A DNA stretch of 64,000 nucleotides from Bolinopsis microptera (lineage: Eukaryota > Ctenophora > Tentaculata > Lobata > Bolinopsidae), in assembly GCF_026151205.1 (NCBI RefSeq), contig NC_087083.1, positions 8,367,460 through 8,431,459 on the forward strand. The letters are read 5' to 3'. A program made the position numbers and the translations under genes. Every line of letters begins with the position of its first letter. Position 1 is the first letter of the stretch. The notes beneath the pieces are model-generated. The model ran no database searches. It had not been told where the DNA came from and worked only from the letters and a program-made list of their open reading frames with translations. Below, piece after piece: positions 42,834 through 61,751 of the stretch.

Positions 42834-43595
42834 AATACCTCCGCTACTGAGTGCTAAGCGCGAAGTAGCGGAGGTATTGTATTTTATAATACATTCCGGT
42901 TCCAATTGGGAGGGGTGTAATGTGATACGTGCGCATGATACCTAATAATAATAATAATAAGTTTTAATACTTTCAACACTACTATATAACAAATAATTTG
43001 AGTGCTATGTAACCTGGCAGTAACGTTGTAAAGGACTTTGAGGGGGTCTGTAGTCCCCCCGCATAGTATGTTTGTGTTTCACTGATTTGTAAACTGAAGA
43101 CGTAAATATAGAACGCCAGTGTTATTTGTTTTGAAACTTGCCGCCAGCTAGTCTGAGTCTATGCTAATAATACCTTCGCTTCCCTTGCGGGATATATCTG
43201 CAAATTATCAGCTCTCGGTGTCCCCGAGTTTTAGTGGATATAATTCCCCGAAGGTATTATAATATAATAATGCCTTCGGCTCTTCGGTTTCCGCTTGATA
43301 ATTCCCGACAGCTTGCTGGAGGGAATTTGCGGCCCGAAGAACCGGAGGTATTATGTATTATAATAATTTCCGGTTCCGATTAGGAAGGGGTGTAATCCGA
43401 TACGTGCGCATGATACCATATAGTGTCTAATATATAGAACGCCAGTGTTATTTGTTTTACAACTTGCCGCCAGCCAGTCTGAGGTCTATGCTGATAATAC
43501 TTTCGCTTCCCTTGCGGGACATATCGGCAAATTATCAGCTCTCAGTGTCCGAGACTTTTAGTGGATATAATTCCCGGAAGGTATTATAAATAAGA
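42834..43595. repeat. MITE-like cluster with AATACCTCCG/CGGAGGTATT ends
   Basis: A hairpin at 42834-42878 has 15-bp perfect arms. Two related units follow at about 42888-43255 and 43370-43595. They share TCCGGTTCC-AATTGG-like starts, GATACGTGCGCATGATACC, GAACGCCAGTGTTATTTGTT, and an end matching CGAAGGTATTATAA. It is a tandem or composite array of a foldback element. Confidence 0.7.
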
Positions 43596-43779: not shown

Positions 43780-45970
43780 GTTCATAATATGTAAATTTAA
43801 TTTGTATATTCCTAATATAGTAATAAGTTGGTGGGGACTGCAAAAAAACAGTGCTCAAACTTGCACTCCCACAATGTTTACCACCGGATCCATACCCTTA
43901 CTAAGATAACAGAGCCAACTAACTCATTAAACCTGAGTTACTAGTGAGTGTAATGAAATTCTAAGTTGACAATACCAGAATCCAGATGGTTGATCTTGTC
44001 TTTGAATTTACATCCCTAGTACTATACTATTAGTGCTTTTCATGCAACAAGTAAAACAAATCCTTTATGTCATGTTTCCAGGGTTTGGACTGGAATTGCC
44101 CGCTTAAAGAACCTCCATCGCGTTACATTACATAATTTTCTGAAACATATATTACATTTACAATAAATTATGCAATATCACAACATTACAATCAACAAAA
44201 TAAATTTAATCGCAGAATCTCAAATGCAAATAATCGTAAATTAAACACAAAAAACAAATTAAACATGCAATAAATGAATATACGAATGCGCATCTTTTGT
44301 CAACTTACTCCTTCATAAAATTAATTTTTGACAAAAAATTTTTTTAGACGGTAAAATAATGGTTACTAATTTATAAGTCACAAATAATAAATCAATACAA
44401 ATTAATCACAAATACTAGAATAATTAATAGATATTAGGTAACTTATATAACTGAAAAACGATATATGTCGATACAAATTACAAAATAATATTAGGTGATT
44501 GAAACATTTCAATAAATTCATCATAAATATCACTACCATATTTACCCCAAATATTTAATCTTGATTTATAAAACTTGACAAACTTGTTGCGCAAAGCAGC
44601 TAACTTAAATCCTTGCGCAACCAATTTACCTAAAAGTTCGGTAACACAATTTTTGAAACCCTTAAGTGTCGAATTAATTCTATGATTAAACTTCAATACA
44701 CGGTAGTATTATTACAAGTATTAATTTTAATCTCATGATATCACAGGAGCGCTCGGGGTTCTCGCTTGTATTGGAGCATATTCTCGCAGACAGATTTACT
44801 CTTGAGCTGGGTCAGAACAACTCACACTGAGTGTTGGGAGTGTGTTGAGATAAGGGTTTGAAATGTGTTCTAGCCACCATATTATATTATGGATCATTAG
44901 AAAATAGAAACTTGAAAATCAAGGCTCAGTGCTGAGATGTAGCTTTTTAAAATGTTTCAACTTCTCCTCAGTGTTATTGGGTAGTTGGGTGACCTTCAAC
45001 ATTGACTTCAGATCTTTTGTGAATTTTTCACAATACGACTATTTAATTCTATATATTTTGTTTTGAAATTTTATAAATTTTTTGTGCTCTTTTTTTGAGA
45101 TAAAAGCCTACCAAGCAGTAGAGCGAAATCATTGTGCCCCAGTCATGATAACATGGTACATGATACATGTAACATGGTACTATCATGATAACATTGTACT
45201 GAATAATATACAAAGGGGTGGCCATATTCCGGGCCTTAAATAGCTTAACAACCCAATCTCAAACTTTGTCACCTGGTACTCTAAACTAGTTTAGACTCAC
45301 ATCTTATGGCCTTATGCAATGCCTGTTAAGCACAATACCATCTCAATGTTGAGCTATTTTTGGCCCGGCCCACACTGTGACTTTGAGTATGTGCTTTTGA
45401 ATCGTTTTAATATTCGCATGTAATAAAGTAATAATATTATGAAATGCATAAAATTGTGGCTAAGTTAAGCAATACTTTTATATATAACGATAAGTTGCAG
45501 TAATTTAGTCACGATTTTCTGTTATCTTGTCGAATTTTGTGTCTTATCACCATCTTATATATTCTAACCGGTTTGTTAAGTGCACTTCTAAATATAATAT
45601 GCGTATCTAATGTGAATATTATGCACATTAAATTATGGTTTTATTATGCAAAAATATGACTGCCTTGTGCGAGTTATAATCTAATTTCAGTCAATGACTC
45701 TGTTGCAGAATTTTTCTGTCTGCTGTTTCAGTTTTCATTCAATCGAAACTGTTATTTTTCAAAATGAAGGTTTTATTATTAGAGTTAGATATCGAGGTTG
45801 TTTAAATGTTAAAAGAAAGAAAGAATATAATAACACAATATTTGCAAACTTAGAAAACGGCTGACTTGTATCAATTTTATACCCGGAGATCATGCAAATT
45901 ACCTAACTTATTGTCTTCTTATTCCATTTATTAATCTAAAAACTTCAAATTCGATGTTCTGTTGAATTTC
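43780..45970. other. Intergenic stretch upstream of glycogen phosphorylase
   Basis: Strongly AT-rich. A minus-strand frame at 44478-44696 (72 codons from TTG) encodes a basic, helical segment with no recognised motif. ACATGGTA/CATGATAAC repeats lie near 45150-45200. I see no other gene. Confidence 0.4.
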
Positions 45971-45980
45971 AAACACTCAT

Positions 45981-46343
45981 ATCACACAGTATGACGTCAT
46001 CATATCACACAGTATGACGTCATCATATCACACAGTATGACGTCATCATATCACACAGTATGACGTCATCATATCACACAGTATGACGTCATCATATCAC
46101 ACAGTATGACGTCATCATATCACACAGTATGACGTCATCATATCACACAGTATGACGTCATCATATCACACAGTATGACGTCATCATATCACACAGTATG
46201 ACGTCATCATATCACACAGTATGACGTCATCATATAACACAGTATGACGTCATCATATCACACAGTATGACGTCATCATAGCACACAGTATGACGTCATC
46301 ATATAACACAGTATGACGTCATCATATCACACAGTATGACGTC
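45981..46343 (+). repeat. 23-bp CRE minisatellite, 16 units, ending on the phosphorylase start codon
   Basis: ATGACGTCA occurs 16 times at exactly 23-bp spacing from 45991 to 46336. The unit is ATGACGTCATCATATCACAC plus AGT. Every copy holds TGACGTCA, the full CRE palindrome bound by CREB/ATF-type bZIP factors. Three units carry small variants (ATAACAC twice, ATAGCACAC once). The 16th ATG is the initiator of glycogen phosphorylase. The array may act as promoter, 5' UTR or both. Confidence 0.97.
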
Positions 46344-49300
46344 AGAGGAAAGCGATTTCTTGCGGAGGAAACAGATCTCTTTAAGGGGACTTCCTGAGAT
46401 TGACAGTGTAAAGGAAGTCATCAATAACTTCAACAGGTTCTCCTTTAATATTACACTTAGTTGCTAAACTTATTTGCTTAATTAACTTGATTTTTACCAT
46501 AGTTGATTAATCGATTTGATAATTAATTTATCAATTAACCAGGCACTTGCACTACACATGCGCAAAAGACCGCAATGTTGCGACCAACAAGGATTTCTAC
46601 TTTGCTCTGGCAAACACTATCATGGACAAACTGATTGGAAAATGGATCAGAACTCAACAAAGTAAACAAACAATTAGTGTATCAATTATATCAACCATAT
46701 TTATTATGTTTTATTTAACAAGATTTGTTACAAAGCTTTTTCGAGGCTTCTTCAAAAAATACCCTTTTTTCACATTAAACAAGAAGCCGCTTCTTGTTAA
46801 ATGTGAAAAAATGGTATTTTTTTAAAAGGATGTCTTGAATTGAACATTATTATATGATATAAGTTATCTCACGTGATATTACGTTACTTGTCATTTAGTC
46901 ACATGATGGTATGACGTCACGTGGTATGACGTCACGTGTAACTGTGTAATGTGGTATATAATGACGTCACACTGCAGGTTACCACAAACAGAGTGTAAAG
47001 AGAGTGTATTATCTCTCTCTGGAATTCATGATGGGGCGGACTCTTAGTAACACTATGATAAATCTCATGCTCGAGGTATAGTATGTATAAATAATATAGT
47101 ACATACATGATTTTCTTTTCTTCTCATGCTCGAGGTATTTTACTATAGTAATACTACTAATTATATGTAATATGTAAAATTGTCATTTACTTTTTATTCT
47201 TTTAGTGAATATTCTTGTGGTGGGTCCTTTTAAAAGGACTACACAACTATTAGTGGTATGTAATGCCACACCGTGACGTCACACCACGTGACGTGACTTC
47301 ATACCACGTGACACACTCACTAACGTGACGTCACGCTGCAGGGTGCGTGTGACGAGGCGCTGTACCAGCTAGGACTTGACATTGAGGAGTTGGAGAGCGA
47401 GGAACCTGATGCTGGTCTTGGTAATGGTGGTCTAGGCCGGCTAGCTGGTTAGTGCTTACTTTATAAGCTGGACAAATACTTTATTAATTAGATATGTATT
47501 TTATTTGAGGCACACAAGTTTAGGAATTAGGTTTCTACCTGGTTCTGAGAGTTTAACCTCTCAGAACCATTTGGGATCAGATATCTGAGTTAAAGGTTTC
47601 ACTATACATTATAATACACTGTACATGATAATACTAAATTTGTTGTAACTCATCCCCAATATTTTGTTTCCTTTCTGCCATATAACTTGCCCTCTCGTCA
47701 CTCAATCCTCCGCAATGAACATATTTGATGATACAGGTCAATTTATTTAACAATTCTCACCTGGAAAAACATCCGGGCCATTATCAGTTGAGTATACTCG
47801 ATAATACAAAGAAGCCGTGTCTTCTGAGCTAAATCTGAACCGGTGTAACTTATGAAGGATGTTGACTGATATGTTGTCATCGCAAGTGGCCTGATTACAT
47901 TGAACATGTATTGTTGACGGCAAGCTCCCCTTTTTGAAAGTCCACTCCAGCTCTCCAGAGGTCATTTCTGTGTAACCATTCTGCTTGATCGTTCCTTGGT
48001 ACTTGATTGTGAAATCCAAAATTGCGTTGCCAGCCCTGGCCCTTGGGGTGTAATTTATTTCAATTCTCTAAATGTTTTCTCCGTTACACTTAGTTGAACA
48101 GAACTCAATTACAAGGTGTCTAACACCAGGAGAGTTCAGTTGCAGTTCAGTCTTCACTTCAACAGTACTCTTAGCTGAATTGAGACTAATAATAGAGCTG
48201 TTATTGACAGGTTTCCAGCCACTTCCACCACCTCTAGGTTCAGAGAGCACCAGCATTGCTAGTAGCACGAGCAGGAGAATCTTCATGTTCTATTCCAGAA
48301 ACTAACAAACAAAATATAGCACGAAACTTATCGCGACCGTCTTATTACCAGCCACTAGGAGACGAAATAATAGTCCCAGCTGCCTGTAGTTTAATCTTAA
48401 TCAGAATACCCTGTGCTATTTCTAAATTACAGTTTAATAAGCTCTCCGCAGCTGTCTTTCTATCCTTGTTTAAGTCAGTGCGTAAATAATTGTACTGATT
48501 CTCGGTCCTCCTAATTACCATTCCTAGTTTGCAGATTTTAATGAGTTTCATCTTAAAAAGTCAGGTTGTTAACCACCTACAGCTGCTCCACCAACATTAG
48601 CTGCGAGAATTTAGCGTCACGACCGAAACAAGGAATTAAAACACTGATATTCCTTGGGGTAAATCAAAGCTTATAAAATGAATTTCTACTAGAATCTTAG
48701 AATAGATGTAATAAACCTTCCGAAATTCAAGTTTCTTTTTGTTCATGTCATGTGGTCTGATCAGGATCGCTGACGTACCATAGAATTTACAATGTAGTAA
48801 CTACAATACAATATTAGTAGTTTTGGTGTTCTTTAAATACTTGTCACCTATGCAATGTTTGAGACAATAACCAGAAACGATTTTCTAAGATGATCTTAAA
48901 GGAACAGCTGTGGGTCGATTACGACTAGAATGTTTGAGAATTTGGAGCATAGTAAAGGTTGTAAAATGGTGATTAGAACGAAAATGACCAAGAATTAGTA
49001 GTTTTTAAGCAGTAAGGACTCAGGATCGCGATCGGTAAGTACGCACTAGGTCCGAAAATTGGCACACCTGTTCAGTGTTCCTGCTAAGAACCAATGAAAC
49101 TTCAGCTCAGGTTTGAGCAGTCTGATTGGGGGTAGAGCAGATGGGATAAGTTCGTTGAAGAGATGAAGATTTCCTGATGGCTTTAAAAAAGAGATCGCAT
49201 TGTGCTTCGTGCTATATTTTGTTTGTTAGTTTCTGGAATAGAACATGAAGATTCTCCTGCTCGTGCTACTAGCAATGCTGGTGCTCTCTGAACCTAGAGG

Positions 49301-52300
49301 TGGTGGAAGTGGCTGGAAACCTGTCAATAACAGCTCTATTATTAGTCTCAATTCAGCTAAGAGTACTGTTGAAGTGAAGACTGAACTGCAACTGAACTCT
49401 CCTGGTGTTAGACACCTCGTGATTGAGTTCTGTTCAACTGAGTGTAACGAAGAAAATATTCAGACAATTGAAATAAATTACACCCCAAGGGCTGGCAACG
49501 CAATTTTGGATTTCACAATCAAGCACCAAGGAACGCGAACGATCAAGGTGAATGGTTATACAGAAATGACCTCTGGAGAGCTGGTGTGGACTTTAAAAAA
49601 GGGGATCTTGCTGTCAACAATACATGTTCAATGTAATCAGGCCACTTGCGATGACAACATATCAGTCAAAAACCTTTGACAAGATAGACCGGTTCAGATT
49701 TGGCTCAGAAGACACGGCTTCTTTGTACTATCGAGTATATTCAACCAATAAAGGTCCAGATGTTTTTCCAGGTTGGAATTAATCACGTAAATGTCTCATG
49801 TTTTTTTCCCTTTTTGTCTCAATTTTTTATTAAGAGGGTTTGGGTGTGAAGAGGGAAAGTTGTGCAATGTGCGGGTGAGATTTGAACAGATGTGGAAAAC
49901 GTAAAGTGGGAGGAATCCTGTGATCAGTATAATAAGAAACCTGTAACTCAGATATCTAATATATAATGATATGTAATATATTATAATATTCACATATTAT
50001 TTTACGAACGAAGGAGTTAAAAAAAAGGTAGCCATTTGAAGGTATTGTGACGTTTTGGGATTTATTTTAATAATGTGACCTTAGTAAACAGCTGAATTTT
50101 GAACATTTCTTAACTTTGCCTCCTTGAAAATCGTTAGTTGAATCATTGAAATTAGTTTTATTACTTTAGATAATTGAGTTAAATTAAAAATTCTGATCCA
50201 GTAAATCGTGTCCAATATTATTTTTTGTAATCTACTCACCTTTATCAGCGTGTTTCCTGGACTCGCTGGCTACGCTCGGTTACCCTGCGTATGGGTACGG
50301 TATACGGTACGAACATGGGCTCTTCAACCAAGCCATCGTCAACTGTAACCAGGTAAGTTACGAGCTGTGACGTCATGTCACGTGGTGTGACGTCATATCA
50401 TGTAGTGTGACGTCATATCACGTGATGTAAATCATTAGTTAACTACGTTTAATGATAGGATAAGATTAGTAACCATATATTAATAACCAGTAAAAAGTAA
50501 TTTATCATTTAGAGATTCAGTAATTACTAACAAGTTAATTACCATGATATGTATTATAGTAATTATAATATTAATAATTAGTTAGTAATTAGTAACATCC
50601 CCCTCCCCAGATAGAGAAACCAGACAGTTGGTTAACGTACGGTAATTAGTAACAATTAGTAATAAGTAACTTATTGACACCCCCTCCCCAGATAGAGAAA
50701 CCAGACAGTTGGTTAACGTACGGTAACCCCTGGGAGAAGGCTAGACCTGAATACACAATACCTGTTAAGTTCTACGGGCACACTCAGAGAACGGGGGATC
50801 AAGTGGAATGGGTAATTATCTAATAATTTACTAATAATTGATTAATAATTAATGAATAATTAATTAAAAATAATTAGTAATTAGTTATTATTGATTGATC
50901 AAAAGGGATCCGATGTTAATTGTTTACTGTTTTAGAGTAAGATCGTACGTGGTGTTTAGCCTGCCTTTCTGTTTAACTGTCTATTTTCACGATATACGAT
51001 ACTAGCACTACCATCAAAAATACCCCCTAAACCAAAAACAAACACAGCAGTTAAACAGTTAGACTACCATTTTTCCAACATTGTCTCCAACATGTCTCAT
51101 AGATAATGTTGCCTATTGTACTGTTCTGTCTGATCCGCTACACGACCACTAGCCACCTTAAATACCTCTCTGATAGTGATACACTGGACCACTTAGGACG
51201 GCTTGGTTTCCTTTCTAAATACGTACAAGATGTCACGTTTGAAGAGAGAAGTATGGATGATTTGAAGTCGAAGAAGCACGCTAAACGGAGACCCGGTGAA
51301 GACGAGGATATAACGGAGACCTGGTTGAGACCTGGTGGTGTTCACACCAGACGGAGACCTGGTAGCTTGCACACACGACCTGGTGGGGTGGTTGTGTTTC
51401 CTAGAAGTCTCATACTTCAGGAGTTGGAGAATAGCAGGACTGTTCTCAACTACTTGGATGATTTTGGGTACCTTGATGGTTACGCCAGTCTAAAATCTAA
51501 AGTAAAAGATGAGGGATCACATCAGGATGATCTGACTATGATGAGTACTGAAGATCTTGAAGGAGCTTTGACGCTGTTCCAGTCCATGAATTCTTTGTAT
51601 CCGACAGGAAATGTTGATGAAGAAGTCCTAGCACAGATGAAAATCCCACGGTGTGGGGTTCCAGACATTGATCCCTACGATCCAGGAGCACTTGCTCAAC
51701 TCGGACTGGAAACAATACAGGGTACCAACGGGCTGAAAGGCGGATGGAAGACCTCTCTGTTTAATATTAAACCGGAAGACTTTGTTGCATTCAACAAAAG
51801 ATACGAGATTTCTGATGAAAAATGGCTGAAAAACAAGCTGTCTTTTCACATAGAGAGCATCAGTGACACGCTAGACAAACACACTCAAAATGAGATAGTC
51901 CAGGCTTTTGAAGTGTGGACTCAAAGCGTAGAACTCTTTCTCTACGAGGTAAAAGACAAAAAGATAGCAGATATAAGGATACAGTTCCTGGAAAAGGACC
52001 ATGGTGATAAATATCCATTTGACGGGCCTATGGGGGTCCTTGCACATGCTTTCTACCCTCGTAGTGGAGAAATCCACTTCGACAATGACGAGGAATTCAC
52101 CCGTTTATCCGACAGAGGGGTTAACCTAAGATACACAGCAAGCCACGAGTTCGGGCATACTTTGGGGTTAAAACATTCCGTCAAGAAAGGCTCCCTAATG
52201 TCTCCTTATCATCCTGGCTACACAAAAGAAATTCGCCTACAACACGATGATTTGGAGGGGATCTCTAAGATATTCAAGCTTGGAAAAGGTGCCGTGTTTA

Positions 52301-55300
52301 CTGCTGAGACATTTGAGGCGATGGAGTACCAAAGGTTTCAACAGAATGAATTTGTTGGCTCGCAAGATAATAAACCTCTTGCTATGAACTCGCCATGTAT
52401 TGGAGTAATAGATGCAGTAATCCAACACCCTCGCAAGAAAACTCTCTTTTTCTTCACCAAAGACATATACTACAAGGTAGAAAGAGATAAACTAGGTGAG
52501 ATAGGTGTGGTTGAAGGTTACCCAAAGTACATATCGGAAGGGTGGGATGGGTTGGAAAACAACATTGACGCTGCTTACGTTAACGCTACTATATCTGCAG
52601 CGTTCTTCTTTAAAGGGGAACAGTACTGGAAGTATGATTTTATCCAGGAGAAAATGTACCCTGGTTTCCCGAAAGCGACCATGCCGTTAGTCTCAAAACA
52701 TCTTAAAGCAACCATGATGTCCGGTAACACCGCTTACTTCTTCTCCGGAGATAAAATACTGAAATACGAAAGTTCAACAAACACGGTACAAACATTCACT
52801 GATAAGCACGTGGAATCTGACGCAGCATTTCCCCTCTTTGTGAAGGGCTACTTTGGAACCACGTACGGGTCCACTTACTCCATCTACCGAGTAAAGAACA
52901 TGGAAGCAGTCCGTGTGTATCACGGCCGACCCCTTTCCTGGGACTATGGGTTACCCATGTGTGTGGATCATCTCATGCACAATCGAGTTCTCAATCCTAA
53001 GATGAAACCGTTCTGTAACGCATATGCTTTGCTGGCTTTTACTGATTACAATTTGGATATCCCGACCGAGTGCTATGGTTTGGTGAGGCCATTCCCAGCG
53101 TTCCCGCTGGAAGCGATACATGATCTGGAGATACAGGAAGAGATACAGGGCCTCGAGACTATTGAACTTTGATAATGCGGTGAAGTTGAGTGCAGGATTT
53201 GGACTGATGTGAAAATATATGTTGTTATTTAAAGATTTAACCTGATCTTTGTTTTGAAGTTGACATAGATAACTTTAATAAAGTTTATGTATTTTAATTT
53301 GTTAGTTGAAACAATAAAATCGTAAATTCTTTTTCATTAGTTCTTCGATTAGTATTGAGCATAATTCTGCGAACAAGCCGTCTCTATTTACCATTCACCC
53401 GCAAGTAAACATAAATATCACAATGTTATAGTAATATTACTTTATAATATAAGGCATAATTTTCATGTAATGTGCGAGATCTCCCCGCTCTCAGCCAGTA
53501 ACCACGTACACATAAAGTTAATATTAATACACGTTAATGATACTAGGGGGGGGGGGGGGCAACGCCCCAAAAAGCCTTTTTGGGGCCTTTTGGGGCCTTT
53601 TGACCCTGACCACTATTTGATAGTGTTTATGGACCATAATCGCCATGTAAATACACTCAAATAAACATAAAAGTACTGTGCAAGTAGTCAGATAATATCA
53701 TTAAAGCACTTAGCATATATCAAACTTGATGAAATTGAAGTTAATTCTAGGGCCCCAAAAGGCCCTATACATACTGAAATCCAAAAAGGGCCCTAGAAAT
53801 CGGGGCTTTTTGGGGCCTTTTGGGGCCTTGTGACCCTGACCACTATTTGATAGTGTTTATGGACCATAATCTCCATGTAAATACACTCAAATAAACATAA
53901 AAGTACTGTGCAAGTAGTCAGATAATATCATTAAAGCACTTATATTATTATTAGCATATATCAAACTTGATGAAATTGAAGTTAATTCTAGGGCCCCAAA
54001 AGGCCCTACACATATCGAAAATCCAAAAAGGGCCCTAGAAATCGGGGCCTTTTGGGGCGTTGCCCCCCCCCCCCCCCCCCCATACTACTTTCAATTCTCT
54101 CGTCCCATGTCTCGCCTAATGTCTCAATGTCTATTTATAGCATTATTTAGTCGAGTTTAACATCAGAACACCGTTCAACCACTCGCTTTTTCTTTATTCA
54201 TTGGGAATTGGGAATTTTCATTCTAATAATAATCAAAGTTAATTATATGATTGAATTAAGTAATGCACTTACCGGAACTGACAGAGCTGTTCTAGTGTTC
54301 TAAATACCAAATATTACAATTAAATATAATTTGCATAATTAGCATATTTATTACTAATTAGCATATTAATTACTAACACACAGGTGGACTACACGACAGT
54401 AATAGCGATGCCCTACGATACCCCTATACCTGGTTACAAGACAAACACAGTTAACACTCTCAGGCTGTGGTCTGCTAAATCTCCTAAAGACTTCGATCTT
54501 TCTTACTGTGAGTAGTGCTATCTGGTTGGTTGGTTTACGTCACGTGACTAGAATACTGATCTCTGGTTGGTTGGTTTACGTCACGTGACGAGAATACTGA
54601 TCTCTGATTGGTTGGTTTACGTCACGTGACGAGAATACTGATCTCTGATTGGTTGGTTTACGTCACGTGACTAGAATACTGATCTCTGGTTGGTTAGTTA
54701 GCCTAGAAACTGTTTTTTCTTCTTGAGAGCTTGAGGGGTCGCATTCTCGCAGCAGGCAAGAATGTAACTACGAATTGTAGCTTTGTAGGGCAAGAACGTT
54801 CCAGTTCTTGGCAGAAGTTATCTATTCCAGAAGTTCTTTGCACTTTCCAGAAGTTGTTTGTTCTAGAACTTATTATGATAATAAATTATAAGTGTATGTA
54901 ATCCAGTTTAAATATTATAAGTGTACAATTAGTACATTAGAAGCTTCCATCTCACAATCAAGAGATTATCAGGTACCCTAGATAATAAATTCCAGAAACC
55001 TTTTTCTTCCCATCCCGGAAAGTTCCATCTCGGCAAATCCGAGCTGGATTGTTCTGGACTAACTAATAATACTTATTGCAACTAGCTGTGTTATGTGTAT
55101 TATGTAACTGATTTGTTATTTATTACACGAGAATCTCCTCGTCGTATTTTATCCTTATCGACTCAATAATACACAGATTAAGCAGTATACATGTAACTTT
55201 AATAACAGTTAAAGTAAGAAAGTAAGCTTCTTAGCGTTCTCTGATTGGTTAGTTTGTGTCACGTGACTAAAATACAGCTCTCTGATTGGTTGGTTACAAT

Positions 55301-58300
55301 AGTTCTCCTCTTCGCGTCCAAGAGTAGTCATTCTCTTGTATTGAATGTCAAGTTTATCACTTTATTGTGTCTAACATTCATAACTAATTTCACTGATTTG
55401 TAACTAATTTATATCTAATTTCACTAATCAATAACTAATTACAGTTAACCACGGTAACTACATAGACGCCGTCCTGGACCGGAACATCGCTGAGAATATA
55501 AGTAGAGTACTTTATCCTAACGACAACTTCTTCGAGGGTACGGTTCTCCTCTTAGTTTTTAAACATTTTATTTAATATATTATTGTGAACTAGAACTTTA
55601 TCTAAAAGAACACCATTCATTATAGTTCATTATAGTTCATTAAATCACTACGAATCAAATTACATTGGTTCGGTAGCTGCAGGATGATAATATAATTTGA
55701 TGATTTTGAAGCCAACATATATTTTCCTGGCAAATTGCTATATCAAAAAAATAAGATATCAATGACAACTATAATATGATAACGGAATTAATAATCAATT
55801 AATTATCAGGTAATTATCAATTAATCACCTTGATCATTATCTGATAAACAAAGATTCACCTAATTGAAATTCTAGCCAATGCAATGATTGCAAGTATATA
55901 AGCAATTAATTACTAATTAATTACTAATAATTGCAGGTAAGGAGTTGAGACTGAAGCAGGAGTATTTCATGGTCGCAGCTACTCTAGTTGACATTATCAG
56001 AAGATTTAAAGTTAACAAAGCTTCTATTCCCGAGTCAAAAGAAGAACTTTACTTGGATTTTTCTGAGAAGGTGATTATTAAAGATAAGAAATTTACTTTA
56101 AATTTAAATATCGTAATATATAAGGTAAAGATTTCAGAAAAAAAGTATGTTAAATATGTTAATTATATTAATTATGTAACATGTGACAGGTAGCGATACA
56201 GTTGAATGACACTCATCCCTCGCTGGCTGTACCTGAGCTTATGAGAATACTTATAGACGAGGAGGGACTCAGCTGGGACTCGGTTAGTTTATTTTATATC
56301 ACGTGTCGACAACGTGTCAACAACGTGTCAACAACGTGTCAACAACATGCAAACAACGTGTCAACAACGTGTCAAAACGTTTATTATCGAAAATGAAATT
56401 TAGCAGGAAACAATCCTCTAACTTGAGAAACAAGAGTTGACAAAAAAAACTGAAACTTTTATCATTACACATGATCTGTCCCAGGCTTGGAAAGTATGTA
56501 AAGGAACGTTCGCCTACACAAACCACACGATCCTACCAGAAGCGCTGGAACGGTGGCCAGTTACAATGCTGGATCACGTGCTACCTCGTCATTTGGAGAT
56601 TATCTACCTTATCAACCATTATCATCTGGAGGTATAGTTGTTATTGGTGGTTTATTATTCAGTAGTTGGAGGTTAATTATACATTAATTATTGATACGTA
56701 TGCTGGTATGCATAGTGTTAGCCAGTTATTATCATTTTATGTAATTGTACATAATATTATTACATTATGTTCAAATTCAAATGGACAAGTGGAACTGGTC
56801 GCGCTTTAAATTTTTATATTTTCCTTATCATTAAACTACTATTACATATTATTATTGAAGTATTGTTCGTTGCAGGAAGTGAGAGCTAAATTCCCTGGCG
56901 ATAATGAGAGGATTAGTAGAATGTCAATTGTTGAAGAAAATGGTGATTAATTAATTTGTTTATCTATTTAAGTCAAATAACATATGCCCCGCTTACTAGT
57001 TTAGCTCTTTCTAGTCCCCTGCTACACGGCATGTAAACAGGGATTGGCTAGTTAGAGGCGGTCCGTGTAGGCCTTACACTGTGCTTTCAGCAATACTCAT
57101 AAACATAAAGGTGACGAAATGGATCAAAATGAAATTGATCAAAATGAAATGGATGAAGATTTACCATAATTTGATAACTTACCTAACATGCCCTGGCTTT
57201 GGAGTAGGAAAGATTTGCACTTATTTATTAACAAATAAATTAATATGTCAAGAAACTAATCAGTGACCGATTAACTAATTATCCAATTAACCTCAGGAGA
57301 AAAGAGGATAAACATGGCTTACTTGTCGGTGGTTAGCTGTCACACTGTTAACGGGGTGGCGGCGATCCACAGTGGGCTCCTCGTTACATCTCTGTGAGTA
57401 TACTGGACTGTATTGTGGACCAAATAGTAGATCAAATAGTAGATCAAATAGTGGACCAAATAGTGGACCAAATAACGGACCGAATGATATAAAAAATTGT
57501 GGACCAAATATTGGATTAAATATTGGATTAAATATTGGACCAAATGAGTTTAGTTAAGTTCATACCAGCTCTATTCACTAGCACAAACACGCTTCACAGA
57601 CACTCTCCTCCTTATCTGCTCTTGCTTTAATTTGTCAATGAATTGTTGAAACATCGTCATCAGTCACAACAACGACATTTGGTAACATTTAGTCTAACGG
57701 AAATGTTATGTTCTTATGAATCAGCAGACCGTAAAAAGCAGTCAAGAAGAGAATAGGTGCTTTCTGAATTAGCTAATAACCTAAGAATGTTTCCTTGATA
57801 TGGATAGTTTTCGTTAATTAATTGTAAAGACTAAACACTTTTCGGGCCCAGAATCTTGTCCCGATAAGAGGTTATTTTAGTTAGTTGTTAGAAAAGATCA
57901 GTATTTAATCTGTGTATTAATCCTCCGGTGTATTCGACATAACTCATCCTGAAAAGGAGAATATGAAGTTTTCATTACTAATTACTAAAGAGATTCAATC
58001 AGAGTTGATAATGTTTTGAATAAACTACGTAGCTAATCCATTCAAATTTTAAGAATTAACATTCTTAAAATTAAATTCCCCCGATTTTAATCTCCTAACC
58101 CCACCAGATTTAAAGATTTCTACGAGCTGACACCTGGAAAGTTCCAGAACAAAACGAACGGAATCACACCGAGGAGATGGCTAGTCCAGTGTAACCCCTC
58201 TCTTTCTCATCTAATTACAGAGAAAATAGGTACAGAGTGTGTGTACTTGGGTTACTAATTCCTGAACACATGAACACATGAACATGTATCACTTTCGTTA

Positions 58301-61300
58301 CTTTCTTCATACATACACGTATGTAGTTTATTATATGTGATACTGGCTTTTAGTGATTTCCATTTCTGTTCTGTTCTGGCTCTGATTTATCGCATAACTT
58401 GTCAGGTGACGCCTGGCCGACCAATTTATATCAGCTGGAAAAACTCAAGGAATTTGTTACAGACAAAACATTCTTACAAGAGGTTAGCTTTATTTACAAT
58501 TTCTGAATTGACATTGGTGTGTGTTTGAGTGTGATCCTCCTCGAGTACTCGAAAGTTTGATTCGTCACCAGTATTCTACATTTTCTTATATATTTTTGGA
58601 CTTGCTTTTGTTGACAAATTTGCCGCTATCAACTTTCGAGAAGATTCTCGAGGATTCTCAGGGATTCTACATTGAGAATTTAAACGGGATCAATAGAAAT
58701 TTACCCAAGAAAAATAATTTAAACTATTTGAGAATTGAAAGTAGTTGATATAAACACGTTTTACTTCAAGGTATTCAAGACAAAACAAGGAAACAAGAGG
58801 AGGCTAGCCCAATATGTAGCTGACAACTATGGCATAACTCTGAATACAGGGAGCATGTTTGATATCCAGGTAAAAACCACCGTATTATTGTTAAATATGT
58901 AGCTAACAACTATGGGATAACTCTGAATACAGGGAGCATGTTTGATATCCAGGTAAAAACCACCGTATTATTGTTAAATATGTAGCTGACAACTATGGGA
59001 TAACTCTGAATACAGGGAGCATGTTTGATATCCAGGTAAAAACCACCGTATTATTGTTAAATATGTAGCTAACAACTATGGGATAACTCTGAATACAGGG
59101 AGCATGTTTGATATCCAGGTAAAAACCACCGTATTATTGTTAAATATGTAGCTGACAACTATGGGATAACTCTGAATACAGGGAGCATGTTTGATATCCA
59201 GGTAAAAACCACCGTATTATTGTTAAATATGTAGCTAACAACTATGGGATAACTCTGAATACAGGGAGCATGTTTGATATCCAGGTAAAAACCACCGTAT
59301 TATTGTTAAATATGTAGCTGACAACTATGGGATAACTCTGAATACAGGAAGCATGTTTGATATCCAGGTAAAAACCACCGTATTATTGTTAATTCGTTAC
59401 GTGATATGACCTGATGTTATGTCCTATAATATCCCAGCTGCTACCAGCTACATTGCCAGCCGGCATGATTATCCTCGAACACGGATTTTGAGTAGTGTCT
59501 TGACGGCGGGCGCGAACGCCATATCATTTCTGTGCAGAACACGCCGCGCAAAACGCGCATTATATAGTCCGATCTGCGCGCATGTCATAATAATCATACC
59601 GAAGTACGTGAGTACGCTGGTACGTGACAATAAGAATTAGAGTCCCATGATTCGGGATTCAAAGGTTGTGAACTATATGAATCTTGTTCCAAAAGGAGGC
59701 TTAAACGCTTGTTACGGAAGACGATGCACGAGAACTAGCGATCAACACATCACAATTCACCAATCTGTATTATACTATTCTAGTCACGTGATAACACCCA
59801 ATCAATCTCCTTGCAGGTAAAGAGAATCCACGAGTACAAGCGTCAAACCCTCAACCTACTCCACGTCATTACCCTCTACAACCGGATTAAGAGTAATCCT
59901 AACTTGGAGTTCGTTCCTCGAACTATTTTCTTCGGCGGCAAGGTTAGCATAAAATACTTCTACGTTATTTAACTTTTTCATTGTCACGCGTCAACCACCA
60001 GAAACCACATCTTTTTATCGGCTATTACTAAACATCCAGATAATCATCAATCAGTCAAAAATGAACCCCAACTATTTCAGGCAGCTCCAGGATACCAAAC
60101 AGCTAAACAGATAGTATCACTGATCTGCCACCTTGCAAATGTGGTTAACAATGATCCAATCATCGGAGACAAGCTCAAAGTAGTGTTCCTCGCTAACTAC
60201 AGGGTACGTTATAACAATGCTAACAATTTTATTACAATGTTATAACATTTGAGGTGGTGGTTTGATTGACTAACCCTACAATCCAACAAAATGAACGATG
60301 AATTGTTTCTCAGCGATAAGATAAGTAACATACATAAATAAAGCTCGTGGAAATTATTTCTATAACCTAATTCTAATATTCCTTAGTGCTCTCTAGCAGA
60401 GATTATAATGCCAGCAGCCGATCTTTCGGAGCAGACTAGTTTGGCTGGGACAGAAGCGTCCGGAACAGGAAACATGAAGTTCATGGTGAGTAGCATCTCG
60501 CTTCTTTGTGAGAGTTGTTTCTATGCTATGATATAAGGTCGTCCAAACGTGGCCTCGAATGAATCCAAATCGGAGACACTTTTTCCTATGCTCTACAGAT
60601 AATCCTAACCAAGCGTATTTTCGCCCTTTAGTTGAACGGGGCGCTGACTATAGGAACTCTGGACGGGGCTAATGTTGAGATGGCAGAGGAGATGGGAGAA
60701 GATAATATATTTATCTTTGGTATGAAGGTGGACGAGGTGCAACAACTCTGGGATCAAGGGTAGGTCTCTAATTTAAAGATGCTAGAACTTCCGTCGCGAA
60801 AGCTGGTTCATCGTGGTTTTAGGGTCGGGTAAATATTCCACAGCCAAACAATTTGTTTGCAAGCTGCAAAGGTAGAGTGAGCACATACTCACAGTACGTA
60901 AGATACAATACCACCAGAATCTAAAAGCAACAACCCCCGTACAGATATGAAACACGACGTTACCTAGCCCGTCTGCCGGAGCTGCAGCTGGCACTGTCCC
61001 AAATAAGTACAGGGTACTTTAACCCTGCTGAACCGCACAAGTTCAGGGACTTTGCGGAACAGCTTATCTCCAATGACAGGTACTTTTATTAGATAATGAC
61101 AGGTACTTTTATTAGATAATGACAGGTACTTTATTAGATAATGACAGGTACTTTATTAGATAGTGGTGGGAGAATTGATATCACCAAAAAGGGTATCAAT
61201 CCTTTTAATTTTCTGCCGTATATTTATTGAAGAGCTCTACAAACAAATTACGTACTTTGTCGGTAGCTAATTGGTTAACAATAACTAATTAAGTGATTAA

Positions 61301-61751
61301 AACTAATTAAATACAGGTTCTGTGTGATAGCGGACTACGAGAGCTACCTGAAAGTCCAGGAGGAAGTTAGTGAGCTCTACATGGACTGGATCAAGTGGAC
61401 TGAGAAATGTCTTTACAACATTGCTAGTGCGGGAAAGTTCTCCAGCGATAGAACCATCAAGTCAGTTGCTACGTTAATTAATTAATAATTGATTAATTGG
61501 TTTTTGATTTAGTTGTTTTTAAAATTTGTTTTATTGCTTTTGTTTACTGTTGACCAGATGATAACAGTTAACTTGTTCACCACCGTCGCTAGGTATTTTA
61601 AGTACATTAATCATAATTAATAACTAATTAATAACTAATTGTAACATAATTAATAACTAATTAAATAATTAATTGTAACTTCAGGCAGTATGCTGATGAG
61701 ATATGGGACATAAAGCCAGTAGAAGTAGACCTCAACCCTCCTAAAGAATAG
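46336..61751 (+). CDS. pyg: Glycogen phosphorylase, 23 exons, complete
   Basis: Cytosolic PLP enzyme releasing glucose-1-phosphate from glycogen. Exons: 46336-46436, 46543-46661, 46978-47075, 47342-47447, 50249-50352, 50692-50811, 54384-54507, 55445-55537, 55937-56070, 56190-56282, 56485-56631, 56876-56942, 57297-57393, 58108-58229, 58406-58482, 58771-58869, 59817-59942, 60081-60203, 60387-60485, 60632-60759, 60945-61079, 61317-61460, 61685-61751. All introns are GT-AG; the total is 2523 nt, or 840 residues (muscle enzyme 842). Ser15 in RKQISLRGL is the phosphorylase-kinase site; Lys681 in GTGNMKFM binds PLP. Asp43, Trp68 and RR of IIRRFK (AMP site) are kept, but the adenine-stacking Tyr76 is His. 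Initiator and N-terminal length match the mammalian protein exactly. Introns 4 and 6 contain other genes. Tandem repeats abut several exon edges. Confidence 0.97.
46754..46823. repeat. Hairpin in phosphorylase intron 2
   Basis: Arms of about 33 bp around a CCGC loop pair with two mismatches (CACATTAAACAAGAAG against CTTCTTGTTAAATGTG). It may be a MITE remnant or fold in the pre-mRNA. Confidence 0.8.
46905..46977 (+). promoter_or_regulatory. CRE/E-box cluster at the exon 3 acceptor
   Basis: Three TGACGTCAC sites, two of them running into CACGTG (TGACGTCACGTG), lie in the last 70 bp of intron 2. The final one is joined to the acceptor as TGACGTCACACTGCAG. Whether these bind bZIP or bHLH factors or only reflect repeat spread is not known. 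Confidence 0.6.
47265..47341 (+). promoter_or_regulatory. CRE/E-box cluster at the exon 4 acceptor
   Basis: The last 75 bp of intron 3 hold two TGACGTCAC and several CCACGTGAC motifs. The acceptor itself reads TGACGTCACGCTGCAG, nearly the same string as at exon 3. Confidence 0.6.
47747..48286 (-). pseudogene. Secreted protein gene, inverted copy 1, in-frame nonsense
   Basis: ATG at 48286, inside phosphorylase intron 4 on the opposite strand. It encodes a signal peptide ([15 protein letters not shown]) and a beta-rich region of unknown family with four Cys (CSTKC, then CNQATC). A single TAG at 48068-48070 replaces the Gln codon found in copy 2. After it the same frame stays open to a stop at 47747, giving about 179 residues if the stop is ignored. 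The C-terminal part ([14 protein letters not shown]) is intact only in this copy. No known domain recognised. Confidence 0.75.
49245..49679 (+). CDS. Secreted protein gene, inverted copy 2, C-terminally frameshifted
   Basis: ATG at 49245, 144 codons, inside phosphorylase intron 4 and head-to-head with copy 1. It has the same signal peptide and nearly the same sequence, with Gln where copy 1 has a stop. One extra base near 49660-49670, compared with copy 1, ends the frame early; the rest of the C-terminus lies in the next frame up to about 49780. About 40 bp upstream of each ATG (with TATAGCACGAA in copy 1 orientation) are also shared. May still make a truncated secreted product. Family unknown. 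Confidence 0.65.
   Translation: MKILLLVLLAMLVLSEPRGGGSGWKPVNNSSIISLNSAKSTVEVKTELQLNSPGVRHLVIEFCSTECNEENIQTIEINYTPRAGNAILDFTIKHQGTRTIKVNGYTEMTSGELVWTLKKGILLSTIHVQCNQATCDDNISVKNL
50353..50440 (+). promoter_or_regulatory. CRE/E-box triplets just after the exon 5 donor
   Basis: Three GTGTGACGTCAT-like units, with CACGTGGTG and CACGTGATG variants, at about 22-bp spacing, start 13 bp after the donor. Same motif family as the promoter array. Confidence 0.6.
50596..50650 (+). repeat. Duplicate of the exon 6 acceptor and first 31-38 exon bases
   Basis: 50596-50649 copies 50677-50730 at an 81-bp offset: a CCCTCCCCAG acceptor followed by codons for [12 protein letters not shown], then TAG in frame. 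A donor-like GTAATT follows ACG at 50642. It could act as a 31-nt decoy exon or a poison alternative acceptor. Confidence 0.85.
51106..53172 (+). CDS. Matrix metalloproteinase with hemopexin domain, intronless, nested in phosphorylase intron 6
   Basis: 688 codons, ATG 51106, with a weak signal peptide at residues 1-16. A first prodomain-like helix ([12 protein letters not shown]) is followed by a basic, Pro/Gly-rich insert at about 50-97 with RRPG/RPGG repeats, then a second helix pair ([12 protein letters not shown]). Cysteine switch PRCGVPD at 181-187. Catalytic zinc motif [11 protein letters not shown] (His347, Glu348, His351, His357) and Met-turn at Met365 ([10 protein letters not shown]). 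Structural zinc ligands likely include His314 and His324. Hemopexin-type repeats run from Cys431 to about 640 ([37 protein letters not shown]). No transmembrane anchor. Expected to cleave extracellular matrix as a secreted zymogen. Lack of introns in an intron-rich genome suggests a retrocopy. Same strand as the host gene. Confidence 0.93.
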   Translation: MLPIVLFCLIRYTTTSHLKYLSDSDTLDHLGRLGFLSKYVQDVTFEERSMDDLKSKKHAKRRPGEDEDITETWLRPGGVHTRRRPGSLHTRPGGVVVFPRSLILQELENSRTVLNYLDDFGYLDGYASLKSKVKDEGSHQDDLTMMSTEDLEGALTLFQSMNSLYPTGNVDEEVLAQMKIPRCGVPDIDPYDPGALAQLGLETIQGTNGLKGGWKTSLFNIKPEDFVAFNKRYEISDEKWLKNKLSFHIESISDTLDKHTQNEIVQAFEVWTQSVELFLYEVKDKKIADIRIQFLEKDHGDKYPFDGPMGVLAHAFYPRSGEIHFDNDEEFTRLSDRGVNLRYTASHEFGHTLGLKHSVKKGSLMSPYHPGYTKEIRLQHDDLEGISKIFKLGKGAVFTAETFEAMEYQRFQQNEFVGSQDNKPLAMNSPCIGVIDAVIQHPRKKTLFFFTKDIYYKVERDKLGEIGVVEGYPKYISEGWDGLENNIDAAYVNATISAAFFFKGEQYWKYDFIQEKMYPGFPKATMPLVSKHLKATMMSGNTAYFFSGDKILKYESSTNTVQTFTDKHVESDAAFPLFVKGYFGTTYGSTYSIYRVKNMEAVRVYHGRPLSWDYGLPMCVDHLMHNRVLNPKMKPFCNAYALLAFTDYNLDIPTECYGLVRPFPAFPLEAIHDLEIQEEIQGLETIEL
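53277..53282 (+). terminator. Polyadenylation signal of the nested metalloproteinase
   Basis: AATAAA 104 bp after the stop codon; a second, AATAAA within ACAATAAAATCG, follows at about 53314. An own signal inside an intron supports independent transcription. Confidence 0.65.
53546..54081. mobile_element. G-tract-tipped non-autonomous element with 6-bp target duplication
   Basis: The left tip is a 14-G run then CAACGCCCC; the right tip is GGGGCGTTG then a 19-C run. ATACTA flanks both sides (53540-53545, 54082-54087). Inside, a unit of about 230 bp (GACCCTGACCACTATTTGAT at 53602 and 53832) is tandemly doubled. The interior is rich in GGGGCCTTTT. No coding capacity. It sits in phosphorylase intron 6, after the metalloproteinase. 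Confidence 0.85.
54508..54690 (+). repeat. 41-bp tandem repeat, four units, just after the exon 7 donor
   Basis: CACGTGAC recurs at 54541, 54582, 54623 and 54664. Each unit has GGTTGGTTTACGTCACGTGA, combining CRE-like, E-box and inverted CCAAT-like strings. A related unit lies near 55240. Confidence 0.9.
56300..56380 (+). repeat. 11-bp tandem repeat after the exon 10 donor
   Basis: About seven copies of ACGTGTCAACA, starting 18 bp into intron 10. Confidence 0.9.
57413..57545 (+). repeat. 12-bp tandem repeat after the exon 13 donor
   Basis: About ten copies of variants of GTGGACCAAATA, starting 20 bp into intron 13. Long open frames here are repeat translations. Confidence 0.85.
58812..59392 (+). 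repeat. 83-bp repeat, seven copies, duplicating the exon 16 donor
   Basis: GATATCCAGGTAAAAACC recurs at 58861, 58944, 59027, 59110, 59193, 59276 and 59359. Each unit has the last 55-60 bases of exon 16 and about 25 bases of intron. Copies alternate GCTGAC and GCTAAC, so growth was probably by a 166-bp dimer. Only the first donor keeps the phosphorylase frame; reading on meets TAG after ten codons. Confidence 0.95.
61072..61170 (+). repeat. 22-23-bp repeat, four copies, duplicating the exon 21 donor
   Basis: AATGACAGGTACTTT recurs with donors at 61080, 61103, 61126 and 61148. Only the first fits the frame; reading past it gives Tyr-Phe-Tyr-stop. Confidence 0.92.

Follow-up and report, generated by a model that had tools for sequence, protein, structure and literature searches.

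Minisatellites at the starts or in the promoters of genes are known from the insulin VNTR and the MAOA promoter VNTR. Tandem CREs occur in the 21-bp repeats of HTLV-1, where three CRE-bearing copies have a demonstrated promoter function. Ctenophores add a spliced leader to many of their mRNAs. In a study of Hormiphora, the leader was reported on 56% of Iso-Seq reads (PMC8527503). The fission yeast M26 site is the CRE-like heptamer 5'-ATGACGT-3', which is bound by the bZIP factor Atf1 (PMC9775316).

The window analyzed here is a 64,000-nucleotide stretch of the genome of the ctenophore Bolinopsis microptera, located on contig C12 of a 264.65-Mb assembly of 232 contigs, which was the genome searched throughout. 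Tandem Repeats Finder (TRF) identified in the window an array with a period of 23 bp, 16.0 copies, and 98% matches (45977–46344, plus strand; consensus TCATATCACACAGTATGACGTCA). The array is a minisatellite, formed by head-to-tail units within the range of about 10–100 bp that share a high identity. An earlier note had recognized the 16 units and their exact 23-bp spacing, with limits of 45981–46343 that are a few bases off. It had also described a perfect CRE palindrome TGACGTCA in each unit and the initiator ATG of glycogen phosphorylase in the last one. Both hold: TGACGTCA recurs in 16 of 16 units, at intervals of exactly 23 bp between 45992 and 46337, and the initiator codon occupies positions 46336–46338. 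The window contains 24 copies of TGACGTCA, whereas 100 shuffles contained 0.73 on average and never more than three. The eight copies outside the array all belong to the phosphorylase gene, in its introns 2, 3, and 5.

The array shares with the insulin and MAOA VNTRs the head-to-tail units of tens of bases at a 5' end and the motifs resembling those of transcription factors. Unlike these promoter VNTRs, its last unit carries the initiator codon of the gene and a candidate splice acceptor. With the repeats of HTLV-1 it has in common that CRE-bearing units are arranged in tandem close to a start site; however, HTLV-1 has three functional copies, whereas the 16 units of the phosphorylase array are known from sequence alone. 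The array shares with ade6-M26 the heptamer ATGACGT, a CRE-like element bound by an ATF/CREB protein, but M26 is a single site recognized as a hotspot by genetics (PMC9775316), and the array matches it in sequence only. A literature search, in which subscription journals were thinly covered, returned no title on the phosphorylase array or on CRE minisatellites of ctenophores.

The glycogen phosphorylase gene (46336–61751, plus strand) was delineated by spliced alignment, using a rabbit PYGM sequence as a guide, and by searches of Pfam and the PDB. The alignment from the ATG of the last unit contains 23 exons encoding 840 amino acids and ends with a TAG stop codon at 61749–61751. The encoded protein matches Pfam family PF00343 with 1084.9 bits and the human brain form of the enzyme in the PDB with 1243.7 bits. 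A phmmer search of the PDB aligned residues 6–838 to residues 6–838 of human muscle phosphorylase (1z8d); therefore, the mammalian numbering applies to both the initiator and the RRKQIS phosphorylation site. The start position is as in mammals, as the earlier note had proposed, with residues M1 to Q13 preceding I14-S15. Exon 1 (46336–46436) begins with nine bases, ATGACGTCA, that belong to the last unit of the array, and it contains no second methionine codon. Followed upstream from the ATG, the same frame stays open for 14 codons, which include no further ATG, until it meets a TGA at 46291. Translation must therefore start in the last unit, unless an upstream coding exon is spliced in.

The eight CREs outside the array are distributed over three introns of the gene. 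Intron 2 contains three copies of TGACGTCA (46912–46969) and intron 3 contains two (47274–47333); in both introns, the last copy is positioned 8 bp before the following exon. The sequence TGACGTCAC(A/G)CTGCAG at 46962–46977 and 47326–47341 places a CRE immediately ahead of the 3' splice site of both exon 3 and exon 4. The remaining three copies form part of a 20-bp repeat in intron 5 (50368–50415), identified by TRF and motif search. The introns also accommodate other genes. Intron 4 holds an inverted pair of a small secreted-protein-like gene, at 47747–48286 on the minus strand and 49245–49679 on the plus strand; the plus copy has no Pfam match, and the frame of the minus copy looks interrupted. 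An intronless gene of a matrixin-hemopexin metalloprotease (PF00413, PF00045; 51106–53169) is nested in intron 6 on the same strand as the phosphorylase gene. Intronless genes are also frequent in an expanded family of ionotropic glutamate receptors elsewhere in the genome, where Pfam PF10613 has 32 matches, ten of them within open frames exceeding 900 codons. In a PDB search with a glutamate-receptor frame, mammalian-type kainate receptor entries took the first ten places and ML032222a of Mnemiopsis the eleventh.

The units of the array have the structure CACACAG-T-ATG-ACGTCA, and thus copy the junction at the phosphorylase start, where an AG is located one nucleotide before the start codon. 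When the linkers are written from each ATG, 12 of 15 are identical, including those of units 1–10, and the variants are found in units 11, 13, and 14. The probability of all three variants falling within the last five of 15 linkers is 0.02. This confinement suggests that the array has grown recently on its 5' side, away from the gene. The array is better read as a repeated duplication of the start junction of the gene than as a purpose-built cAMP switch. We consider it probable, with some confidence, that a recent minisatellite expansion took in the start junction, and that its effects, if any, are on RNA processing or translation. The duplicated stretch would have run from the candidate acceptor CACACAG through a single base and the start codon to the codons ACG TCA. 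Its tandem duplication would have given rise to a minisatellite with a 23-bp period, and new units, for the most part recent and added at the end distal to the gene, would have brought the number of copies to 16. Because the sequence that follows the last copy is all coding, this copy would have remained the functional start. Each unit would carry TGACGTCA because the palindrome belongs to the opening codons of the protein, where A-TGACGTCA encodes Met-Thr-Ser. In the mRNA, the leader would probably be spliced to an acceptor within the array and be followed by a T and the ATG, and the other units, if active at all, would be decoy acceptors and decoy start codons. We infer that such an expansion was close to selectively neutral; the over-representation of CRE clusters in the phosphorylase gene, described below, is an argument against neutrality, which does not itself predict it.

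The array could alternatively be an assembly artefact, in its existence or in its copy number, since near-identical short repeats are hard to count. However, its 368 bp are shorter than long reads, it contains three internal variants, and its flanks are single-copy, which makes an artefact barely credible. In an exact search of the genome, a 31-mer of the unit was found 12 times, every time inside the array. The 2-kb region around the array has one full-length match in the assembly, and a second haplotype copy was therefore not found. The 2-kb query gave 94 matches in the genome, with 40 of 95 candidates scored. Nine partial matches (L010–L018) were cut out and inspected for a paralogous origin of the array, and shared ancestry with the phosphorylase unit was not found in them: one (L015) is the inverted repeat of the phosphorylase gene itself, in intron 2, and the other eight represent five distinct arrays with 18-, 21-, or 22-bp units that are built on the CRE and have little else in common.

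A 29-nucleotide part of the Hormiphora leader (PMC8527503) matched three places in the Bolinopsis genome with three mismatches. When one of these places was in turn searched against the genome with up to three mismatches allowed, 1,521 matches were obtained, and none with the reversed control. The main variant of the leader is present in 236 exact copies followed by GT. Among the first 100 of these 236 copies listed, 35 are positioned within 22 kb on the minus strand of contig C3 (13511056–13533420), where 32 of 34 steps between copies measure 589–592 bp; by its form, this is likely a tandem cluster of leader-RNA genes. Bolinopsis is therefore treated here as a ctenophore with leader trans-splicing. 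The similarities to Hormiphora (PMC8527503) are the leader ending in AATTTGAG, the many genomic copies, and the AG before a share of the starts. The difference is that the phosphorylase gene has its acceptor-plus-ATG junction repeated 16 times, and that this junction is a presumed rather than an observed site of splicing. Within the window, a perfect 43-base copy of the leader is located 3.3 kb upstream of the phosphorylase gene (42960–43002, plus strand), with no GT after its final GAG. Of the 26 leader copies on contig C1 that were listed as identical to the main variant, only one (near 946,660) is in the list of GT-followed copies, and many leader copies may therefore have arisen by retrocopying of RNAs that carried the leader. 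Two further copies with a following GT were observed at L041:8551–8593 and L049:1193–1238, just upstream of open frames of 453 and 413 amino acids. These frames have, as judged by eye, the CCHC spacing of zinc knuckles, like the first frames of LINE-type elements, and, to judge by their sequences, diverged LINE-like elements appear to carry the leader of the host at the 5' end.

The candidate 3' splice (trans-splice) acceptor CACACAG of the phosphorylase start is located at 46328–46334, one base before the ATG, and ACACAG is present in each unit. The AG before the phosphorylase ATG is weak evidence alone, because 21.3% of 3,251 control ATGs have a YAG within six nucleotides. Among 20 starts of signal-peptide-like frames, which a crude rule based on hydrophobicity selected out of 92 candidates, 11 have a YAG within six nucleotides of the ATG and nine do not. 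The nominal P value of 0.001 for this excess over the control ATGs is too small, because the starts are not independent. Two pairs of related receptors are among the 11, as are three frames that are doubtful or of low complexity, and a reading of the list leaves about six independent and credible YAG starts. The excess is therefore suggestive only as support for a start junction. Acceptors were scored with a model built from the phosphorylase gene's own 22 acceptors. The candidate at the left edge of the array (45970–45989), which includes the single-copy flank, is the best-scoring of the 16: with 6.5 bits, the acceptor of unit 1 exceeds 99% of 672 decoy AGs and equals the median of the 22 real acceptors. 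The acceptors of units 2–16 scored mostly 0.2 bits in the 20-base model and as little as -3.2, and are at or below the 66th percentile of decoys. The acceptor of unit 16 is below 95% of real acceptors in the 20-base model, but in 6- to 14-base models it reaches the 80–92nd percentile of decoys and the 23–36th percentile of real acceptors. The scores point both ways, the weak values of units 2–16 being a point against the start-junction reading; the phosphorylase start may alternatively be unspliced and promoter-proximal.

Minisatellites are abundant in the genome of Bolinopsis. In twenty 10-kb stretches at preset coordinates, repeats with units of 9–100 bp occupy 25,660 of 199,900 bases (about 13%), a share driven in part by a few kilobase-long arrays. 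Minisatellites form 5.8% of the window, for which 51 TRF rows were merged by hand to 43, and 13.6% of the phosphorylase gene (45977–61751; 22 arrays). Three of the 46 exon edges of the phosphorylase gene are overlapped by arrays, compared with 6.2 expected (P of three or fewer, 0.11). The 83-bp unit repeated seven times at 58811–59392 comprises the last 59 bases of exon 16, the donor, and the first 24 bases of the intron, and thus places seven copies of one 5' splice site in a row. A 23-bp unit repeated four times extends over the donor of exon 21 (AATGACAG/GTACTTTTATTAGAT; 61072–61162), which provides four copies of this splice site. In addition, the acceptor of exon 6 and the first bases of the exon (CCCCTCCCCAG/ATAGAGAAACC...) occur twice, at 50611 and 50692, 81 bp apart, the extra copy being the upstream one. 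Because there are three such arrays, no more than expected by chance, in addition to the doubled acceptor of exon 6, edge-spanning repeats are a habit of the phosphorylase gene and not a mark of the CRE array.

CRE repeats are also not particular to this locus. Close pairs of TGACGTCA, with gaps of 4–32 bp, number 6,034 genome-wide, compared with 400 for the reversed pattern. The E-box TCACGTGA forms 5,604 close pairs, compared with 388 reversed, and the look-alike palindrome AGACGTCT forms five, compared with 112 reversed. Palindromes of both the bZIP type (TGACGTCA) and the bHLH type (TCACGTGA) are thus favored in tandem arrays. Given the minisatellite share of about 13% and the excess of TGACGTCA pairs, CRE repeats are ordinary in this genome. 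The excess of TGACGTCA resides in the close pairs. Single sites are 3.4-fold above the first-order expectation in the sample and rank 30th among 256 palindromes, and a TGACGTCA unit was found in none of the 121 sampled minisatellite rows, so that CRE arrays are a small fraction of all minisatellites. The tethering motif of ctenophore loop anchors is described as GC-rich with two CpGs (PMC12221973). In the first 3.0 Mb of contig C1, the 63 listed plus-strand places with TGACGTCA pairs, joined when 200 bp or less apart, form 26 clusters, or about 8.7 per Mb, which extrapolates to about 2,300 clusters genome-wide. The clusters are clumped, since eight of the 26 have a neighbor within 4 kb compared with 1.7 expected; this clumping is somewhat overstated, because two of the neighboring pairs, with distances below 330 bp, may each be one interrupted array. 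At this rate, 0.13 clusters are expected in the 15.4 kb of the phosphorylase gene, and the probability of two or more clusters in addition to the start array is 0.008. The excess in the phosphorylase gene is a point in favor of regulation, which the general clumping weakens but does not remove.

The earlier note had regarded the array as a possible cAMP regulatory module. The anatomy of the array on which this was based is confirmed; the interpretation as a module is only partly supported. As a cAMP-responsive promoter or enhancer, the array would recruit CREB/ATF dimers to its 16 CREs, adjacent to the transcription start, and thereby increase transcription of the phosphorylase gene. Full CRE palindromes in 16 of 16 units and the eight further CREs in introns 2, 3, and 5, with their excess of clusters over the genome rate, are consistent with such a function. 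The genome also contains a match to pKID, the kinase-inducible domain of CREB, on contig C3 (2086273–2086356) with 43.9 bits against a cut-off of 25, covering model positions 13–40 of 41; a CREB-type factor is indicated by this one match to the kinase-inducible part. However, about 2,300 CRE clusters, clumped in general, are spread over the genome, and the edge-spanning arrays of the phosphorylase gene are no commoner than chance. The 23-bp step corresponds to 2.19 helical turns, so that the spacing is not helically phased and neighboring CREs face different sides of the helix. Furthermore, the control of glycogen phosphorylase by cAMP is classically post-translational, acting via the Ser14/15 site, and the context of this site is conserved in the Bolinopsis enzyme. 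If the mRNA is trans-spliced, the array is a transcribed outron and not a promoter. Control of the phosphorylase gene through cAMP and the CREs is therefore a live but minority reading, possible but unproven, and on balance we consider it unlikely.

The sequence of the units also permits effects on the RNA. Units 1–15 (45991–46335) contain decoy starts, of which 14 open 8-codon frames whose stop codon overlaps the next ATG (ATGA). Twelve of these frames share one peptide and two read MTSSYNTV-stop; the frame of unit 13 is MTSS-stop and ends after four codons. The 15 decoy starts, together with hairpins formed by the palindromes, could set the level of translation or the choice of splice site. 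The segment 45940–46436 is predicted to fold 5.7 standard deviations below shuffled sequences (z -5.7), with palindromes of different units pairing with each other. However, any array of self-complementary palindromes folds well, and the 91-nucleotide stretch at the true start has an ordinary predicted fold (z -1.15). Tuning of this kind is decidedly unlikely. We regard as very unlikely an arrangement in which the array is a copy-number dial, each unit being a trans-splice acceptor, a start codon, and, in 14 of 15 cases, an 8-codon frame, so that the unit that receives the leader and the number of units in an allele would set the amount of phosphorylase. The growth of the array might alternatively have been driven by recombination, if the CRE/ATF motif promotes unequal exchange and minisatellite expansion in the manner of the M26 hotspot. 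The heptamer ATGACGT is present in 16 of 16 units, and ATGACGTCAT, which has the M26 heptamer on both strands, in 15 of 16; CRE pairs are also far more frequent than those of look-alike palindromes. By contrast, genome-wide pairs of ATGACGTCAT number 249 (control 40; 14 of the 249 should be this array), fewer than the 1,281 pairs of GTGACGTCAC (control 1), and amplification thus does not follow the M26 flank rather than any CRE. Pairs of the E-box TCACGTGA are nearly as common as CRE pairs. In addition, PMC9775316 reports that a TGACGTCA in ade6 was not bound by Atf1-Pcr1 and did not raise recombination. A recombination driver is accordingly highly improbable.

Expansion of the start junction by tandem duplication, which we favor, indicates that a gene can survive the incorporation of its start codon and a candidate splice junction into a tandem repeat. 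The phosphorylase array exemplifies this in a repeat-dense genome whose mRNAs presumably receive a common leader. If the length of the allele changes the choice of leader acceptor or translation, the locus would provide a simple natural system for the length-dependent control of a central metabolic enzyme. The excess of palindrome pairs in the background matters more broadly: because close pairs of both TGACGTCA and TCACGTGA are in strong excess, interpreting a CRE array of this genome as a cAMP switch requires a genome-wide control.
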